Assembly (NCBI GenBank): GCA_001795615.1
Contig: MGKI01000011.1
Coordinates: forward strand, 1 to 44,995
Source: Candidatus Yanofskybacteria bacterium RIFCSPLOWO2_01_FULL_42_49
Lineage (GTDB): Bacteria > Patescibacteriota > Minisyncoccia > 2-02-FULL-40-12 > GWA2-44-9
Direction: 5' to 3'
Length of the DNA stretch: 44,995 bases
A program made the translations under genes and the position numbers. Below, one piece after another: positions 6,702-39,853 of the stretch. How positions within the stretch are numbered: the first letter of the stretch is position 1; each line of letters begins with the position of its first letter. The notes under the pieces are model-generated. The model saw nothing but the letters and a program-made list of their open reading frames with translations. It was not told the origin of the DNA and made no database searches.

Positions 6702-7646
6702 TCAGAATAATATCGGGTTGCCGTAGTCATATGAATCAAGCTCGGTTTTATTAATCGGCGCCACTTGTTCCGACGAAATCCTCATCTTCCTGGCCACTTG
6801 CGGCACAAGGTATCTCTTCTGGCCGTCTCCGGTCAACTGAAAGATGTCGATTGCTTGGACACCCGAAAGGCCAAACAGTCCTTCGGCAAAAACAAACTGA
6901 TTTCTTGGATAAAAACTAAACTCTTTCTCGCTTATGATTACGATGTCCTCTTCTCTGTTGCCGTAAGAATCGAAAACTTTTTTATTGAGAAAGGGGCGGA
7001 TCATTCGGCCTTCGGTTATGTAGTAGTTAGTTTTATCGTTCTTAACTCTAACTAGTTTTATTCTTGGAAATTTACTAACTTCCTGCTTGGTCGCTTTTTG
7101 AACCGCATCTAAACTAAAACCGTAATCAAAGAATATGTCGACAGTAGGAATAAAATGCCTCTGGCCTTTTATAATTTCGAAGATTGATTCATCAGTGCCA
7201 AGACCGATTGTCGGTTCGCTAAATCCGGTAGTAGAAGGAACCCTCAAAAGAATAATTTTATCGCTGGAAACTGACCTTTTTATAGTAATGTTGGCCATGG
7301 ATGCGGTAAGTTGGCTGGTCGCCCCGGTGCCGATATTGACCGTCCCGCTCCCGATGTTGTTTTCCGTTGAAGAGATGTCCCCTTTGGTCTTTTGGGACAA
7401 GGGCTCAACGCCCGATTCAATAGCGGGACTGGGGCGGTCAGCGGTACGAGTATAACCACATCCCAACCCCATGGACAATAATGAATTGCAGACAAAAGCC
7501 TCCAAATTACCATTACTGCCATATAAAACAGTGTCTATCGAACCATTGGAATGTTGGGCTTTAGCGTTAAATCCGGTAAAAAATAAACTCGCCACAGTTA
7601 CGGTCAAAACCACTGATTTTAAGTATAAAATTGAAATAGGCTTCAT
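6702..7646 (-). CDS. Secreted hypothetical protein with repeated RHFIP/YYITEGRMIRPF-type motifs; start re-chosen at MKPISIL
   Basis: Signal peptide MKPISILYLKSVVLTVTVASLFFTGFNAKAQ; repeat style common in CPR secreted proteins. Confidence 0.7.
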   Translation of the reverse strand: MKPISILYLKSVVLTVTVASLFFTGFNAKAQHSNGSIDTVLYGSNGNLEAFVCNSLLSMGLGCGYTRTADRPSPAIESGVEPLSQKTKGDISSTENNIGSGTVNIGTGATSQLTASMANITIKRSVSSDKIILLRVPSTTGFSEPTIGLGTDESIFEIIKGQRHFIPTVDIFFDYGFSLDAVQKATKQEVSKFPRIKLVRVKNDKTNYYITEGRMIRPFLNKKVFDSYGNREEDIVIISEKEFSFYPRNQFVFAEGLFGLSGVQAIDIFQLTGDGQKRYLVPQVARKMRISSEQVAPINKTELDSYDYGNPILF

Positions 7647-7747
7647 AAGATACAAAGCTAGTTGTCTTCTAAAGTATACCATGTTTGTTGGGGTTTTGTC
7701 AACTATAGGAATTCGGACTAAAAAATGTTACATTATAAACAACCTTG

Positions 7748-8470
7748 ATGTCAGAACAAATACTAAATGTTCAAAATTTAACAGTTTCATTCGGCAATAA
7801 TACGGTCATTGAAAACCTTAGTTTTAGCGTAAATAAAAATGATGTTGTGGCCATAGTCGGACCTAACGGTGCCGGCAAATCAGTCCTTTTCAGGGCCTTG
7901 CTGCAATTTGTCCCCTATACCGGAAAAATTGAATGGACAAAGAAATTAAAGGTTAGTTATATACCCCAAAAATTCAATGTAGACAGAGATTTTCCGATTA
8001 CCGTAAAAGAATTTTTACGATTAAAATCAAATAACCACAAAGACATTCTGCTTGCTCTTGAATCCGTAGGACTCAAAAATAAACAAGACGAACAACATCA
8101 CATTGAACACCATTTGCTTAATGAAAGGATGGGGTGGCTCTCGGGAGGACAATTGCAGAGAGTTTTAATCGCTTGGGCGATCTTGGATAACCCCGATGTA
8201 CTGCTTTTTGATGAGCCGACAGCGGGCATTGATGTCGGCGGCGAGGAAACAATTTATAATCTGCTCAAAAAATTAAACGACGAACGCGCGATGACAATAC
8301 TGCTGATATCGCATGACCTGAATATAGTCTATAAATACGCAAATACTGTTTTATGCGTGAATAAACAAAAAATCTGCTTCGGTCGGCCAAACGATGTACT
8401 GGACCCGCAGGCATTGGTGAAGTTATACGGAGGAGAAGCAGCTTTTTATGCTCATGAGCATAAGAATTAA
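7748..8470 (+). CDS. Metal (Zn/Mn-type) ABC transporter ATP-binding protein
   Basis: Walker A GPNGAGKS, signature LSGGQLQRV, Walker B VLLFDEPTAG. Confidence 0.92.
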   Translation: MSEQILNVQNLTVSFGNNTVIENLSFSVNKNDVVAIVGPNGAGKSVLFRALLQFVPYTGKIEWTKKLKVSYIPQKFNVDRDFPITVKEFLRLKSNNHKDILLALESVGLKNKQDEQHHIEHHLLNERMGWLSGGQLQRVLIAWAILDNPDVLLFDEPTAGIDVGGEETIYNLLKKLNDERAMTILLISHDLNIVYKYANTVLCVNKQKICFGRPNDVLDPQALVKLYGGEAAFYAHEHKN

Positions 8471-8676
8471 TCTCTAAATCCTAAAATATGACAATTTCGA
8501 ATCTCGAATCTCTAAACTCTAAACAAATTCAAATATCAAATCTCAAAAGTCTTAAAGATTTTCTCCCCGCCGGATTTTGAATTTCTTTTTTGAGATTTCT
8601 TCATTTTGAATTTTGAGATTGTTTAGAGATTAGAATTTAGAGATTAGAGATTCTTAAGTTAGAAATTAGAGATTTT
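8470..8676. repeat. AT-rich imperfect inverted repeat spacer
   Basis: AATCTCTAAATCC...TCTAAACTCTAAACAAATTCAAATATC / GATTGTTTAGAGATTAGAATTTAGAGATTAGAGATT. Confidence 0.75.
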
Positions 8677-17279: not shown

Positions 17280-17411
17280 TTTTTAAACCCTAGACTCTAA
17301 TTTCTAAACTCTAAACAATATCTAAATCCAAATATTTAAATCTCCAACTGTTTCGAATTTTAAATTTAAGATTTTGAGCTTGTTTAGGATTTAGGGTTTA
17401 GAATTTAGGAT
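17280..17411. repeat. AT-rich inverted-repeat spacer (CCCTAGACTCTAATTTCTAAAC / GTTTAGGATTTAGGGTTTAGAATTTAGGATTTA)
   Basis: Telomere-like heptamers in inverted arms. Confidence 0.75.
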
Positions 17412-18161
17412 TTATATTTGTCTTGCCATTTGATTCAACTGCTCTGTTGTATATTTTACCAAACTTATATTCCTCTCATAGTCCATTCTTGTCGGCCCCA
17501 CCAAGGTAAGCAGGCCTTCTAGTCCTTCGGGCAGATCATATCTTGCGGTCATAATGGTCTCATCTCTTATGCCCGGCAAGGAATTCTCTCGACCTATAAA
17601 GACATTAAATCCAGGCGCGCTTTCTTCTTTAAAATCCTTAAAAAACCCTGTCTCTATTTTTTCAAACATCTGGTCAAATTCGTCAAAAAAACTAGTCAAA
17701 CGAAATATTCTATCAAACTCGCGAAATTCAGGCATTTCGAACAGAGATGCCAGCCCAACTTTATAAAAATTGTCATCATCCAAAACTTTAGTGATAACCA
17801 GATTTTCGGAAAGTTCGGAAAGAATTCTAGCAATACCTTGATTCAGACGATATGGATCACTTGAAGAATTTACGGCTGTTTTTATTTTTCTTTTTTCATT
17901 AATCGTTGGTTCAGAATCATTCTCGAGCAGATTATTCACAAAGTGCCTATATGCCTTGTCTGTCGGCACCCTACCTCCTGAAGTATGAAGGTGACTCAAA
18001 TACCCGGCTTGTTCCAACGCACACATCTCGCCTCTTAAACTGGCTGGGCTTAAATCAAAACCACCCTTTTTGGCAATAAAGGCGGAGCCAACCGGTTTTG
18101 CGGTTTTGACATATTCTTTAATTATAAAATTTAATAATTTTCCCTGTCTGCCAGTGATCAT
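17412..18161 (-). CDS. hrcA: Heat-inducible transcription repressor HrcA, shortened
   Basis: MITGRQGKLLNFIIKEYVKTAKPVGSAFIA...SPASLRGEMCALEQAGYLSHLHTSGGRVPTDKAYRHFV; ends LVGPTRMDYERNISLVKYTTE. Confidence 0.93.
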   Translation of the reverse strand: MITGRQGKLLNFIIKEYVKTAKPVGSAFIAKKGGFDLSPASLRGEMCALEQAGYLSHLHTSGGRVPTDKAYRHFVNNLLENDSEPTINEKRKIKTAVNSSSDPYRLNQGIARILSELSENLVITKVLDDDNFYKVGLASLFEMPEFREFDRIFRLTSFFDEFDQMFEKIETGFFKDFKEESAPGFNVFIGRENSLPGIRDETIMTARYDLPEGLEGLLTLVGPTRMDYERNISLVKYTTEQLNQMARQI

Positions 18162-22436: not shown

Positions 22437-23822
22437 ATGTCAGAATTTTCTTCCAAACCCTTCGACGCTGCTCAGGGCAAGCTCCCTCCGCAGAACATCG
22501 AAGCTGAGAGATCGCTTCTCGGTTCTCTTGTCATCGATCGGGAAGCAATAAACAAGGTCGCTGATTTTTTGCGGCCCGAGGATTTTTACAACAGAAGCCA
22601 TCAGAACATTTACAGGGCTATTTTTTCTTTATTTGAAAAAAGAGAACCGATAGACCTTTTGAGCATCTCTAACAAGCTCGGCGAGATGAAAATGATAGAT
22701 GAAGTCGGCGGCATCAGCTATATTTCTTCCCTGGCCACATCAGTGCCGACATCTGCTCATATCAACTCGTACGCCAAGATAGTTCAGAAAAAAAAGATGC
22801 TTCGCGACCTGATAGACACGGCTCATCATATTATCGGACTGGGCTACCAGGAAGACGACGATGTGGAAAATTTACTGGACGAAGCGGAAAAAAGATTATT
22901 TGCCGTTTCCAACAGATCGCTTACAAAAAATTTCGTACCCCTGGACAGAATCGCTCTGGATGAAGCCATCGATAGGATAACCAACCAGCACGACGAGATA
23001 CGCGGCTGCAAGACAAATTTTCCTGAACTTGACGATACGCTGGGCGGATTCCAAAAATCAGATTTGATAATACTTGCCGCAAGACCCTCCGTGGGTAAGA
23101 CCGCGCTTACTTTGAACATTGCCCTCAATGTGGCAAAACAAAACATCCCGGTCGGCATATTTAGCATGGAAATGTCTTTGGATCAGATAATAGACAGATT
23201 TTTAGCATTAGAATCGGGGGTAAGTTTGCACCACCTTAGAACCGGAAAACTTGGCGATGGCCTTCAGGATGTCGCCGGCGCTTGCGAATCCCTGCGTTCC
23301 TTGCCAATATATGTTGACGACACGCCGTCTCCCAACATTCTTCAGATGAGGGCAATGGCTCGGCGGTTACAAGCAGACAAGGGGCTGGGATTGCTTATCG
23401 TTGACTATCTTCAGTTGATGGCTTCGAGAAGAAACTATGACAGCCCGGTTCAGCAAGTAACCGAGATATCCCGAGGACTGAAGGGGTTAGCTAAAGAGTT
23501 AAATATACCGATATTAGCAGTTTCGCAGCTATCTCGTGCGGTAGAACAAAGAGAAGGCCACAAACCGCGATTGTCTGATTTAAGAGACTCCGGCTCAATC
23601 GAACAAGATGCTGATTTGGTAATGTTTATCCACAGAGACGATAAAACTAACTTTGAAAAAGCCAAGAGAGAAAATAAGCTGAATCAGGCACAAGTAATAA
23701 TTGCCAAACACCGAAACGGACCGACCGGTCAAATTGACTTCTATGTTGACCCCGCAAGTTTAAGGTTTAAGACAAGCGATAGATTCCATACGGATGAATA
23801 CCTTATGGGCGAAGTTATATAA
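22437..23822 (+). CDS. dnaB: Replicative DNA helicase DnaB
   Basis: NIEAERSLLGSLVID, ARPSVGKTALTLNIA, DYLQLM, SQLSRAVEQR, SGSIEQDADLVMFIHR. Confidence 0.97.
   Translation: MSEFSSKPFDAAQGKLPPQNIEAERSLLGSLVIDREAINKVADFLRPEDFYNRSHQNIYRAIFSLFEKREPIDLLSISNKLGEMKMIDEVGGISYISSLATSVPTSAHINSYAKIVQKKKMLRDLIDTAHHIIGLGYQEDDDVENLLDEAEKRLFAVSNRSLTKNFVPLDRIALDEAIDRITNQHDEIRGCKTNFPELDDTLGGFQKSDLIILAARPSVGKTALTLNIALNVAKQNIPVGIFSMEMSLDQIIDRFLALESGVSLHHLRTGKLGDGLQDVAGACESLRSLPIYVDDTPSPNILQMRAMARRLQADKGLGLLIVDYLQLMASRRNYDSPVQQVTEISRGLKGLAKELNIPILAVSQLSRAVEQREGHKPRLSDLRDSGSIEQDADLVMFIHRDDKTNFEKAKRENKLNQAQVIIAKHRNGPTGQIDFYVDPASLRFKTSDRFHTDEYLMGEVI
22458..22482. repeat. In-frame palindromic element near the dnaB N-terminus (CCCTTCGACGCTGCTCAGGGC), encodes PFDAAQGK
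   Basis: Same CCCTTCGA...TCAGGG core as 25681-25698. Confidence 0.75.
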
Positions 23823-23951
23823 CTATCCTAATTATTATAATCAATGACCAATAACCAACGTCCAATACTCAATAAAACTTAAAAATGTCTAAAACATTTG
23901 GAGATTGGTTGTTTATTGGTTATTGAATATTGGTTATTTCTTTTTATTACA

Positions 23952-24560
23952 ATGAATCTTAAGTTCCAACAACTTGTCAAACTATTTCAGCGGCTCCCGG
24001 GTGTCGGTCCTCGCCAAGCGGCACGATTTGTCATTGCGCTATTGGATCAACCGGAAGAGAATTTGGTTGAGCTGGGAACCGCCATTAACAGACTGAAAAA
24101 AGAGATAAGTTTCTGTGGTGAGTGCTTTAATATCTCGGATAATTCTCACTGTCATATTTGTCATGATACCAAAAGAGACAAGGCAAAACTGATGGTGGTT
24201 GAAAAAGTTACAGATCTTGAATCGGTAGAAAAAACCGGGTTGTATAAAGGACTTTATCATGTCCTCGGCGGAGCCATTAACCCTTTGGACAAGATAACTC
24301 CGGCTAATTTAAAAATAAAAGAATTGGAAAAACGATTAGAAAAAATATCCGCAGAACAAGGAGTAGAACTTATAATCGCCACTAACCCCAACACATCCGG
24401 CGAAACAACGGCAATGTATCTTAGAGACTTATTCGCTTCTACCAACTGGCAAAACAGAGGCCTATCAGTCACCCGCCTCGGCCGCGGCCTCTCCTCTGGC
24501 TCCAATTTAGAATATGCGGACGAGATTACTCTTAAGCACGCACTTGAATATAGGAAATAA
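23952..24560 (+). CDS. recR: Recombination protein RecR (start at MNLKFQQ)
   Basis: RLPGVGPRQAARF; C4 zinc finger CGECFNISDNSHCHIC; Toprim. Confidence 0.95.
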   Translation: MNLKFQQLVKLFQRLPGVGPRQAARFVIALLDQPEENLVELGTAINRLKKEISFCGECFNISDNSHCHICHDTKRDKAKLMVVEKVTDLESVEKTGLYKGLYHVLGGAINPLDKITPANLKIKELEKRLEKISAEQGVELIIATNPNTSGETTAMYLRDLFASTNWQNRGLSVTRLGRGLSSGSNLEYADEITLKHALEYRK

Positions 24561-33413: not shown

Positions 33414-33502
33414 AACACCATAACACTAATCTACAAATCTACACGAATACTACAAATAACTATTCGTAGCATTCGCATGTCATTCGTAGATTTGTATTAC
33501 AT

Positions 33503-33823
33503 TCAGCGTAGCGCTGCCACTTCGCCGCTTCCAAAGATGTGCGTCACATGTCTCGCCTCTATCATATAGTGACTTTCGGCAAAATTGAGTATGGCTGAAG
33601 AATCCTCAATTGACAACTTCTGGGCGGTTAGAAGCCCATTTGTTTCCATCAGACCCGAGAATTCGTCGTTGAGCAGACCAATTTGGTAACTAGAGGCGGT
33701 TATAATGTTCGAAACGATAACATAATAAATCATTAAAAAGATAGCCGCCGCCGACAAGAAGACATTTAAAACCCCCAGATGAGTATAATTGAATACAGCT
33801 ATATTTTGTGGATTTCGAGTCAT
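33503..33823 (-). CDS. FtsL-like bitopic protein
   Basis: Single TM; between rsmH and ftsI. Confidence 0.6.
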   Translation of the reverse strand: MTRNPQNIAVFNYTHLGVLNVFLSAAAIFLMIYYVIVSNIITASSYQIGLLNDEFSGLMETNGLLTAQKLSIEDSSAILNFAESHYMIEARHVTHIFGSGEVAALR

Positions 33824-36231: not shown

Positions 36232-36378
36232 AGGTGGTTAAATTAACCTAATTTCTCTAATTATTCTAATTGACCTAAATAAATCCTAATAACTGAGTGA
36301 CCAAAATTTTAGACATTAGACATTTTGGTATTGGGATTTCTTTAGAATAATCAGGTTAATTAGAAAATTAGAATAATT

Positions 36379-36682: not shown

Positions 36683-38602
36683 ATGCAAAGAATTTTTCTA
36701 AAACCAACTTCTCAAGAAATAGTTACCAAGGGAAATCCCATAGATGGCCATACCGATGTTTTTGCCTATGAGTATTATGATGACGAGGATAAAAGAGGGC
36801 TGGGCGGATTGTTCATCATCGGCAATGTAAAGCAAGATGCTGCCACGACGGAAGATGAAAATACCCCCAATGTGGCCTATGTTTCTAACCTCGTCGCCTC
36901 ACTGGCAAAACGGGAGTATTATTCAAGACCGGAAATATCACCACGGGACGCCTTCTCCGCGACTCTCAAAAAAATAAATGATGTTGTGGAAGAATTTTTC
37001 AAAAACAAGTCCTTAAAGATAAACATCGGTATATTTGCCGTCGCCGGAGAACAAATACTTATATCAAAACTGGGTAAATTCAAAATAATACTAGGCAGAC
37101 CCGCCCGCTCGCCTGGGCAGACAGGCACAAGTGGAGAACCAAGGGTAGTAGACATACTCAACAACATAGATCTCTTTAACAAAGAACAAGTCGAGGAAAA
37201 GGAATTTTCTAATATCATCTCCGGTAAAATAATGCCGGGTGACAAGCTGTTTGCTTTCTACCCAAACCGATCGATTACGGCCAGAGAAAAGTTGATAAAA
37301 GCCAGCCTTTTAAAATTCGATGATACGCAGTTCGTAGAAAAAATAAATTCCATAAAAGAGGCAAAGCCAGATTTTGATTGCGGGGCTTTGTATCTTTCTT
37401 TAAATAACTACAAGGAATTGGCGGTTAAAAAACCAAAACCGATAGTACCAGAGAAGGGCGAATTACCTGCGGTCAGCTTGGCTACAAACAACTTAAAGGA
37501 ACAAGAAGGTGTCGATAAGATCAAAACTCCGGTCCCAACATTAGTTCCGGCTCAGAATGCTGACCTGGCAATACCGGAGGAAGTGCCAAGAATAATATCT
37601 TCTGAATTTTCTCTGGGTAAAAAGAATAATCCCCTCCTTGCCCCTCTTAAAATAATAAAGAATCTCTATGCCGGTTCCGGTTCATATATAGGAAATCTAT
37701 CCGGCCGTAGATTATCCCAAAACATAAATTTCAAAAGAAAATTTGTGATTTTATCTTTAACCGCCGGATTTTTGGTGGGGGGTGTTGTTGTGGTTAAAAA
37801 ATTCATAGTAGTAAATCCGGAACAGCGCCAACTCAATATGGTTATAAATCAAACTCGGGACAATCTTAAACTGGCCAAAACCAAGATAAGCCAAAATGAC
37901 TTTATCGGCGCAAGACAACTTCTCGCAGATTCATTATCAAGCATTTACGGGGTGGGTGTTACAAACGACAAGACCAAGAAAACAACAAGCGATGTTTACG
38001 AAGTTTTAGACAACATAGACAAGGCCATCGATGTTTCTCCCTCGCTTCTTGAGATAATGCCAGAGGAACTCAGCCAAAAAATTACGGTCATAACAACTCA
38101 AAAAGAAAAATTGGCCACGAACGAATACAACATTATCTCGCCTATTGCTTTCGACATTTACGAGAGTAACTTATATGTTCTTACGCCAGACAACATCTTC
38201 AAAGTAGCCGACATCAATCAAAGCGGTAAAAAAGAATCCTCACCTTGGTTGAAATCAGGCGGCACACTGTCTCAAGCGTCAATGATATCCGTCGACGGTA
38301 ATGTTTTCGTGATGAATAACTCCGGAACCCTGGTAACTTTTTACAAGGGCGAAAAGATTTCAGAAACAAATACATTTATTGTTTCCAACAACAACGATTC
38401 CTTGCTTACATCTAAGGATTCCGACAAACTTTATGTGGTCAACAAGTCTCTCTCCAGGATATATGAATTAAACAAAGAATCTAAATCACTGATAAGGACT
38501 CTCAAGGTCGGCAGTTCAGAACCTTTCGTAGACGCATACCTAACCGGCAACAGCACTATAATCATTACCACTAAAGACGGTAGAATCTGGGAAATCAAGT
38601 AG
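36683..38602 (+). CDS. Large membrane protein: PP2C-like(?) N-terminus, TM, C-terminal propeller-like domain
   Basis: Intact 639-aa ORF; TM KFVILSLTAGFLVGGVVVV. Confidence 0.7.
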   Translation: MQRIFLKPTSQEIVTKGNPIDGHTDVFAYEYYDDEDKRGLGGLFIIGNVKQDAATTEDENTPNVAYVSNLVASLAKREYYSRPEISPRDAFSATLKKINDVVEEFFKNKSLKINIGIFAVAGEQILISKLGKFKIILGRPARSPGQTGTSGEPRVVDILNNIDLFNKEQVEEKEFSNIISGKIMPGDKLFAFYPNRSITAREKLIKASLLKFDDTQFVEKINSIKEAKPDFDCGALYLSLNNYKELAVKKPKPIVPEKGELPAVSLATNNLKEQEGVDKIKTPVPTLVPAQNADLAIPEEVPRIISSEFSLGKKNNPLLAPLKIIKNLYAGSGSYIGNLSGRRLSQNINFKRKFVILSLTAGFLVGGVVVVKKFIVVNPEQRQLNMVINQTRDNLKLAKTKISQNDFIGARQLLADSLSSIYGVGVTNDKTKKTTSDVYEVLDNIDKAIDVSPSLLEIMPEELSQKITVITTQKEKLATNEYNIISPIAFDIYESNLYVLTPDNIFKVADINQSGKKESSPWLKSGGTLSQASMISVDGNVFVMNNSGTLVTFYKGEKISETNTFIVSNNNDSLLTSKDSDKLYVVNKSLSRIYELNKESKSLIRTLKVGSSEPFVDAYLTGNSTIIITTKDGRIWEIK

Positions 38603-38620
38603 TTGTAAAGCCAAACCCCC

Positions 38621-38814
38621 GCTTCTTTTTCTCACGGATTCCTCATAGAGCAGTTGCGACTCGCTCCTAATTTTATCAGACCAATTGGGGATACCCCGAC
38701 CCGGCCATGCGGCTTCCGGTAGGGTCCGTTCCGGGTCACCCCAATTGGTGCCCAGAAAAATCGCGTCGCTCATCTGCAACTGCTATCTATTCGTCATAGT
38801 GAGAAAAGAGAAGC
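38621..38814. ncRNA. Candidate ~194-nt rod-like structured RNA/inverted repeat, strand unresolved
   Basis: Collinear stems 38621-38635/38799-38814, 38649-38657/38776-38784, 38679-38690/38739-38750, 38698-38704/38731-38737. Confidence 0.55.
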
Positions 38815-38875
38815 AAGGGTTTCGCTTTGCTTTGTGTAGGTGCGTATATGGCACGTTGAAAAACACCACAAGCGA

Positions 38876-39102
38876 GCAACGCCTGTCGCAATTTTATCAC
38901 TTGACGAGTCAATAAAATTTATGAGAGTAGGACAGGTTTTATCTAAAATCATAGGTCGAACGCCGATCCGCCATTCGCCAACTGGCGAAGGCGGAGAGGA
39001 GGCAAGAGAGGGTAACCTGTGATTTTAGATTATAAAACCTGCCCTATCTTGAGTAGGTTTTTGAAGACGAAGAACCGTGATTAAAATTGCGATAGGTGTT
39101 GT
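38876..39102. ncRNA. Candidate ~227-nt nested inverted-repeat element
   Basis: Outer arms 38876-38900/39077-39102; middle arms 38924-38956/39015-39050; inner palindrome 38968-38994. Confidence 0.55.
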
Positions 39103-39242
39103 GAGCGACTATTTGAATTCAACCCTTCGAATCCCTCAGAGTTGAACTTAAATATTCTATTTGAGTTCGCTAGAGTAATTCAAAACTTGACAATAATACT
39201 AAATACATTAACATATAGCCAGCACAATAGAGGAGGAAGCAC

Positions 39243-39392
39243 ATGGACAAACTTTTTGGATTGAAAGTTCATTGGAAAATCCAAATTATAATTCTAATAA
39301 GTCTTGTATTGATTTCCTTCTATGTTCTTGCCATGCAATCCAGAGGTTCTATTCTCGATACGGCCCTAAAATGTTTTTTCCAATATCCATAA
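39243..39392 (+). CDS. 49-aa single-TM small protein MDKLFGLKVHWKIQIIILISLVLISFYVLAMQSRGSILDTALKCFFQYP
   Basis: SD GAGGAGGAAG, TTGACA at 39187-39192, terminator directly downstream; below the ORF-track size cut-off. Confidence 0.75.
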   Translation: MDKLFGLKVHWKIQIIILISLVLISFYVLAMQSRGSILDTALKCFFQYP

Positions 39393-39410
39393 TCCCTTCG
39401 GGGATTTTTT
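39391..39410 (+). terminator. Terminator with TTCG tetraloop
   Basis: AATCCC-TTCG-GGGATT-TTTT. Confidence 0.9.
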
Positions 39411-39416
39411 AATGTC

Positions 39417-39441
39417 AAAAAAGAGCCTAAGGCTCTTTTTT
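39417..39441. terminator. Bidirectional terminator (rplL side)
   Basis: AAAAAAGAGCC-TAA-GGCTCTTTTTT. Confidence 0.9.
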
Positions 39442-39481
39442 GATTCAGTAATCAATTACGAAAATAAACCCGTATTTTTGG

Positions 39482-39853
39482 TTACTTGAGTTCAACTGTT
39501 GCGCCGGCTGCCTCGAGTTTTGTTTTCATTTCTTCGGCGTCAGCTTTCTTAACTCCCTCTTTGACATTGGCCGGAGCCTTATCGGTGATATCTTTGGCTT
39601 CTTTAAGCCCCAACCCGGTTATCTCTCTTAGCGCCTTGATAACTTGTATTTTAGCGCCACCAGCATCTTTCAAAATAACCGTATAGCTATCCTTCTCCTC
39701 AGTTCCTTCTGCGGGGCCGCCTTGGCTCGCCGAAGCTGCGCCAGCAGCGAAGGCAGCTGATACGCCGAATTTATCTTCCAAGGCCTTAACTAACTCGTTT
39801 AGTTCGGCTACTGACATTTTTTCCACTTCTTCAATAAATTTTGTTTTATCCAT
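39482..39853 (-). CDS. rplL: 50S ribosomal protein L7/L12
   Basis: [56 protein letters not shown]. Confidence 0.97.

Follow-up and report, generated by a model that had tools for sequence, protein, structure and literature searches.

Organization of the locus

Within the window, by which we mean the whole analysed stretch of 44,995 nucleotides, two long imperfect palindromes, termed rod A and rod B, lie between a 639-aa open reading frame (ORF), for which the Pfam search gave no match, and rplL, which is the next recognised gene past rod B and has its stop about 376 nt from that rod (Table 1). A 49-aa ORF (39243-39392, plus strand) lies between rod B and rplL; it has GGAGG upstream and one membrane-like stretch by eye, and found no match in the Pfam search. 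An earlier note, made from the letters of the window, had described 38621-38814 as a long rod-like inverted repeat with a bubble in the middle, placed in an unusually large gap of about 640 bp, and had read it as a structured RNA, possibly 6S-like. The gap is as large as described, extending from the stop codon of the 639-aa ORF to the small ORF at 39243, but rod B within it had been overlooked, and the marked interval falls inside the palindrome of rod A, whose true limits lie about 14 nt further out at each end.

Table 1. Coordinates of the rods, neighbouring genes and other palindromes (window positions unless another locus is named)
Feature	Position	Strand	Description
639-aa ORF	36683-38602	plus	stop TAG 38600-38602, 4 nt before rod A
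Rod A (type I)	38607-38828	minus	imperfect palindrome, full extent; hairpin finder score 71.7
Rod A core	38630-38804	minus	TCAC...GTGA, with tandem GA mismatches
Rod A outer arms			AAAGCGAAACCCTTGCTTCTCTTTTC / its complement
Rod A apical part	38683-38749	minus	type I apical motif below variable terminal loop
Rod B (type II)	38872-39106	plus	second imperfect palindrome, adjoins rod A in opposite orientation; hairpin finder score 70.1
Rod B core	38894-39083	plus	covariance model R2 match, 172.9 bits
Rod B apical part	38952-39019	plus	type II apical motif around variable hairpin
rplL (ribosomal protein L7/L12)	39482-39853	minus	Pfam PF00542, 1.4e-28
RAYT-like Y1 genes and REP	L153 1282-1347, 2010-2050; L097 about 7410-7740		
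AT-rich palindromes	1551-1763, 8469-8674, 17284-17414, 36241-36378; also 731-913, 23812-23975		
Third palindrome type	33417-33503; L115 15170-15307; L116 19692-19865; L117 837-1045, 15330-15409		

The inverted repeat itself was borne out, as it forms one irregular hairpin on either strand, far beyond what is seen in shuffled sequence. RNA folding of 38621-38814 gave -73.0 kcal/mol (z -5.3) for the plus strand and -89.3 kcal/mol (z -8.1) for the minus strand, and none of 200 shuffles was equally stable for either strand, the minus strand being the better one. The hairpin finder, with its stricter pairing scores, gave rod A 71.7 on the minus strand in comparison to 48.9 on the plus strand, and no hairpin exceeded 40.8 when the 45-kb window was block-shuffled four times. 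Rod A folds better on the minus strand because what are T.C and A.C on the plus strand are tandem G.A/A.G mismatches and G.U pairs there. What had been described as a bubble resolves into tandem G.A mismatches and bulges on one side or the other, spaced out along the rod. The covariance model built for type I (R1) matched rod A with 167.6 bits at 38630-38805 on the minus strand.

Common architecture and covariation

At least two core types, divergent in sequence, are built to one plan: the stem has tandem G.A mismatches and, at fixed places, one-sided bulges, the apex is variable, and the outer arms are specific to each locus. When the copies are displayed as two-strand rods, even those with unrelated helix sequences have this common layout. 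The outer stem is variable, with a recurring base AGCGA/GAGC, and inward of it lie TCAC/GTGA and then the tandem G.A loop TGACGA / GAGGAA. Type I cores have a 5' bulge of 2 nt and, about 8 bp further, a 3' bulge of 1 nt; a G.A step follows and then, still below the apex, a 5' bulge of 3 nt. At least three apex forms occur, each with conserved unpaired letters (CATGG, AAGNGAGGGTT and GCAAACGGTT), and in every one of them the terminal hairpin is dispensable. The type I apical motif is CCGCATGGCC opposite GG[AA/CT/TT]CGG, whose columns are nearly invariant in the type I alignment, and the type II motif is AGGTCGAACGCC ... GAGGCAAGNGAGGGTNACCT, whose columns are invariant in the type II alignments. 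Since certain stems occur with differing apexes, the element looks modular.

Covariation was strong in both core types. For the 17 type I cores, 27 of the 38 consensus pairs had both partners changed yet still pairing, 95.8% of the cells were paired, and the covariation score was 0.565 in comparison to 0.209 for shuffled alignments; for the 17 type II cores, the values were 29 of 49 doubly changed pairs, 91.3% paired, and 0.450 in comparison to 0.187. None of 500 shuffles attained the observed score (0.565 in type I), and as the sequences are related, so that the shuffles alone give no probability, it is of use that the control with the type I columns slid by 1 to 3 positions, which scored about 0.1, agrees with them. 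The alignments were made by MAFFT, with the outermost columns imperfectly aligned. Conserved G.U pairs are present in both types. The fold of the rods is clearly preserved by evolution, and to that extent the reading of the earlier note is supported, in that the rod is a structured nucleic acid whose fold is under selection.

Mismatches were also counted in the model-found type I cores under a strand-neutral scoring. There were 272 G.A in comparison to 56 C.T mismatches, an excess which partly restates the naming of the strands, since the G.A strand was the one used to build the model, and 114 G.U in comparison to 75 A.C (p 0.006), which is less affected by that naming but modest.

Copies and distribution

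In the source genome (0.8 Mb), blast found further copies of rod A (C3:22089-22366 and C8:36501-36684) and of rod B (C12:6956-7192 and C12:1473-1689), along with partial relatives. The type I covariance model detected 3 loci and the type II model 7, which makes at least 10 copies, an eighth type II match being the opposite strand of a locus already counted. By a hairpin-finder list sorted by hand, about a dozen G.A-type rods are present in each of two samples, approximately 420 kb of the source genome and 396 kb of its congener (G002). The rods are about 220 bases long, and further types beyond I and II were detected by the hairpin finder alone.

A first blast of relatives showed the element to be multi-copy in some genomes and at zero in others of the same GTDB family. 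Of 28 genomes of this family the type I model matched 13 (one of them, G001, marginally) and the type II model 12, with G007, G012, G017 and the congener rich in rods and G013, G010, G003 and G016 free of them; across 286 sampled genomes of the class, under stricter filters, the type I model matched solely within the same family. The exact type II apex pattern, searched in 84,980 genomes at one genome per species, was found in 11 stretches, all of Candidatus Yanofskybacteria, as were all named matches. The rods are thus a lineage-specific family, restricted in the collections searched to Ca. Yanofskybacteria. Our literature search, the coverage of which was thin for subscription journals, returned no description of these rods, and the family is apparently undescribed.

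Position at gene 3' ends and turnover between genomes

To describe the position of the rods, the model-found cores alone were used together with a simple ORF rule. For type I, the stop of an opposite-strand gene was found at most 25 nt from the 3' end of the rod in 19 of 31 cases, in comparison to 3 for the mirrored sense stop, and for type II in 16 of 30, again in comparison to 3. Taken together, there are 35 antisense-stop cases against 6 mirrored ones (combined p about 5e-6), from which it follows that the structured strand is usually the bottom strand of the preceding gene. The stop-to-rod distances lie mostly between -11 and +12. Rod A conforms to this rule, while rod B is now without such a gene. 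One type II rod, L248 (G012:C8:24298-24476), has an unusual orientation, lying 9 nt past the stop of a same-strand ORF; this ORF matches a reverse transcriptase profile.

The rods differ between closely related genomes. In the source genome but not in the congener, a rod accompanies gyrA and a 388-aa gene; the reverse holds for a 424-aa gene, and at jag the two genomes differ in rod type (II in one, I in the other). Across species, lon, dnaK, jag, mreB, typA, a Sua5-like gene, an aldolase-like gene and others recur as hosts (names given by sequence recognition, without database search), and the rods at these genes are unrelated or weakly related between species. Directly past the stop of lon, three mutually unrelated rods occur in G002, G019 and G012, other palindromes in G027, G025 and G022, and ordinary terminators in several relatives with few rods or none. 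The far flank at lon (a T-run and ATTTGCYAAA) is common to three species of one genus while the inner hairpin differs; judging from this shared flank, replacement within an inherited site would be as possible as new insertion.

Comparison with known families and enzymes

Rfam cmscan of the window at gathering cut-offs returned two tRNAs and nothing else, giving no family match for rod A, and a permissive search of 38560-39480 returned nothing near a family cut-off. The proposed 6S-like identity did not hold. The rods are similar to 6S RNA in a length near 190 nt and an irregular rod shape; unlike it, they are multi-copy (10 model-detected loci in the source genome), oriented after stop codons, patchy in close relatives, and without Rfam match or promoter evidence.

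Integron attC sites have a folded bottom strand (PMC2727003). The rods share with them an imperfect palindrome just past a stop, a structured strand antisense to the gene (35 vs 6 in the rods), structure conserved beyond sequence, extrahelical bases at fixed places and a variable terminal structure. They differ in being about twice as long and in their scattered sites at housekeeping genes, without cassette arrays or integron integrase, and by eye the R and L boxes with RYYYAAC...GTTRRRY ends are not visible in the listed rod ends. An integron was rejected, as the integrase profile TIGR02249 was over its cut-off in 0 of 58 genomes, with weaker Xer-like matches only. Two Xer-like recombinase ORFs of 731-735 aa (G007:C17:5094-7193 and G027:C7:32396-34495) have a profile match interrupted by a stretch of about 400 aa that may be an intein.

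REPINs of the REP-RAYT system are dispersed, non-autonomous hairpins with two conserved terminal REPs (PMC3116915). The rods are likewise dispersed, extragenic, non-autonomous hairpins with compensatory changes, but their outer arms vary while the middle and apex are conserved, and there is no conserved terminal REP pair. A RAYT/REPIN origin was rejected because Y1 transposase genes do not track the rods, being present with and without them and absent from rod-bearing G012, G019, G021, G024 and G027, and because the RAYT-like Y1 genes of the source genome and the congener are flanked by their own REP palindrome, CCTGTGGATAATCGACTTGCGAAGTCGATTATCCACAGG, dispersed in both genomes (Table 1). As in MITEs, the rods are dispersed inverted-repeat elements without genes; unlike MITEs, they have conserved internal structure and no common terminal inverted repeat beyond the weak AGCGA/GAGC base. 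No matching transposon was found, and no target-site duplication was noticed in the listed rod flanks.

Three further candidates were rejected. Reverse transcriptase is present with and without rods and missing in rod-rich G019. For a phage or viral origin, the exact type II apex pattern and one type I pattern had no match in IMG/VR, and blastn had none among phage records. Insertion of a core into an existing terminator loop was considered because the outer arms are unique and near-perfect; there is no consistent T-run after the rod, and the arm base AGCGA recurs.

Other palindromes

A different class of palindromes in the window is long, AT-rich and nearly strand-symmetric, with degenerate CTAATCT / CTAAACAA / ACCAAT units (Table 1). 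Several of them fill the entire space between two co-oriented genes, e.g., peptide deformylase/fmt, ABC ATPase/permease and hrcA/grpE (names by eye), and they are common in the source genome and rare in the congener. A third dispersed palindrome type has a motif like AATCTACGAATGACATGCGAATG.

Interpretation

Our leading explanation, held tentatively, assigns rods A and B to a lineage-specific, non-autonomous family of dispersed hairpins that spreads at gene 3' ends. Dispersal, restriction to one lineage, covariation, stop-linked orientation, the strand asymmetry of type I cores, presence and absence between congeners, and the unrelated or weakly related rods at one and the same gene in different species all count for it. 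The strand antisense to the neighbouring gene would fold single-stranded into the rod, a structure-specific protein would recognise not the helix sequence but its irregularities (tandem G.A mismatches, bulges at fixed places, the conserved internal loop of the apex), and new copies would be placed beside stop codons, the usual terminator sites, where a rod may also come to serve as the 3'-end hairpin of the gene. By analogy, the working principle would resemble that of integron attC bottom strands and of REPINs, with membership in neither. Three points count against it: the searches for a mobilising enzyme (integron integrase, Y1/RAYT and reverse transcriptase) turned up none that tracks the rods, no target-site duplication was noticed in the listed flanks, and recurrence at the same gene could equally reflect vertical inheritance of a rod whose inner part has been replaced. 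The earlier note had named a dispersed DNA repeat as the finding that would speak against a structured RNA, and this came out half so, since the rods are dispersed and yet covary. Covariation, strand and position evidence does not separate folding as RNA from folding as single-stranded DNA. A more specific possibility, which we consider doubtful, is that the rods represent a new structure-recognised, single-strand-folding mobile site in Patescibacteria, with modular rods and an enzyme targeting gene 3' ends, in which mismatches, bulges and the apical internal loop, not sequence, would be the recognition code.

Ranked next, and somewhat unlikely, is that the upstream gene uses the rod as a giant terminator or as the end hairpin of its mRNA, with host selection keeping it and occasional duplication dispersing it. 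The rods begin about 12 nt or less from stop codons, and lon in several rod-free relatives has an ordinary terminator hairpin at the place of the rod. Past the sense-strand end the T fraction was 0.41/0.38/0.37 within 15 nt in comparison to about 0.28 further out, TTTT occurred in 23 of 77 cases in comparison to 9 of 77 on the other side, a U-tract followed immediately after 9 of 33 rods in comparison to 38 of 288 random control offsets, and an ordinary terminator behind the rod was somewhat rarer (3/33 vs 59/288 controls). The T rise and the rarer terminators lend weak support to a 3'-end role. However, the better-folding, motif-bearing strand is the antisense and not the mRNA strand, a U-tract is absent from most rods, and termination needs no elaborate conserved bulges or apical motifs.

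Less likely again is an antisense non-coding RNA family, in which the G.A strand would be transcribed and act as RNA (a 6S-like decoy, a protein sponge or other). Structured RNA typically shows covariation, G.U pairs and tandem G.A mismatches, as the rods do, but no promoter enrichment was seen 5' of the rod on the G.A strand, with -10-like elements in 45 of 77 cases in comparison to 41.7 shuffled and full sigma70-like promoters in 14 in comparison to 16.2 shuffled. Many copies also lie antisense between co-oriented genes, the 5' ends of the A/B pair are merely about 25-43 nt apart, here and in the congener, and Rfam gave no match. Very improbable is covariation free of selection, with templated quasi-palindrome correction keeping the arms of inert debris complementary, for although the outer arms are often near-perfect while unrelated between copies, such correction would erase mismatches and bulges that are instead conserved at fixed positions, with apical motifs, across sequence-unrelated copies, and the strand asymmetry also speaks against it.

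Genomes of the candidate phyla radiation are thought to be stripped down, yet the rod-bearing ones carry many long, evolutionarily maintained hairpins beside core genes such as gyrA, lon, dnaK and mreB. To our knowledge, integron attC sites are the main known case of a structure that is kept while its sequence varies freely and that has a set orientation towards the adjacent gene. The protein reading the rods, once found, would bring to light a recombination system not seen before or else a new kind of RNA or 3'-end control, in a lineage of tiny, uncultured bacteria for which, as far as we know, there is almost no genetics.
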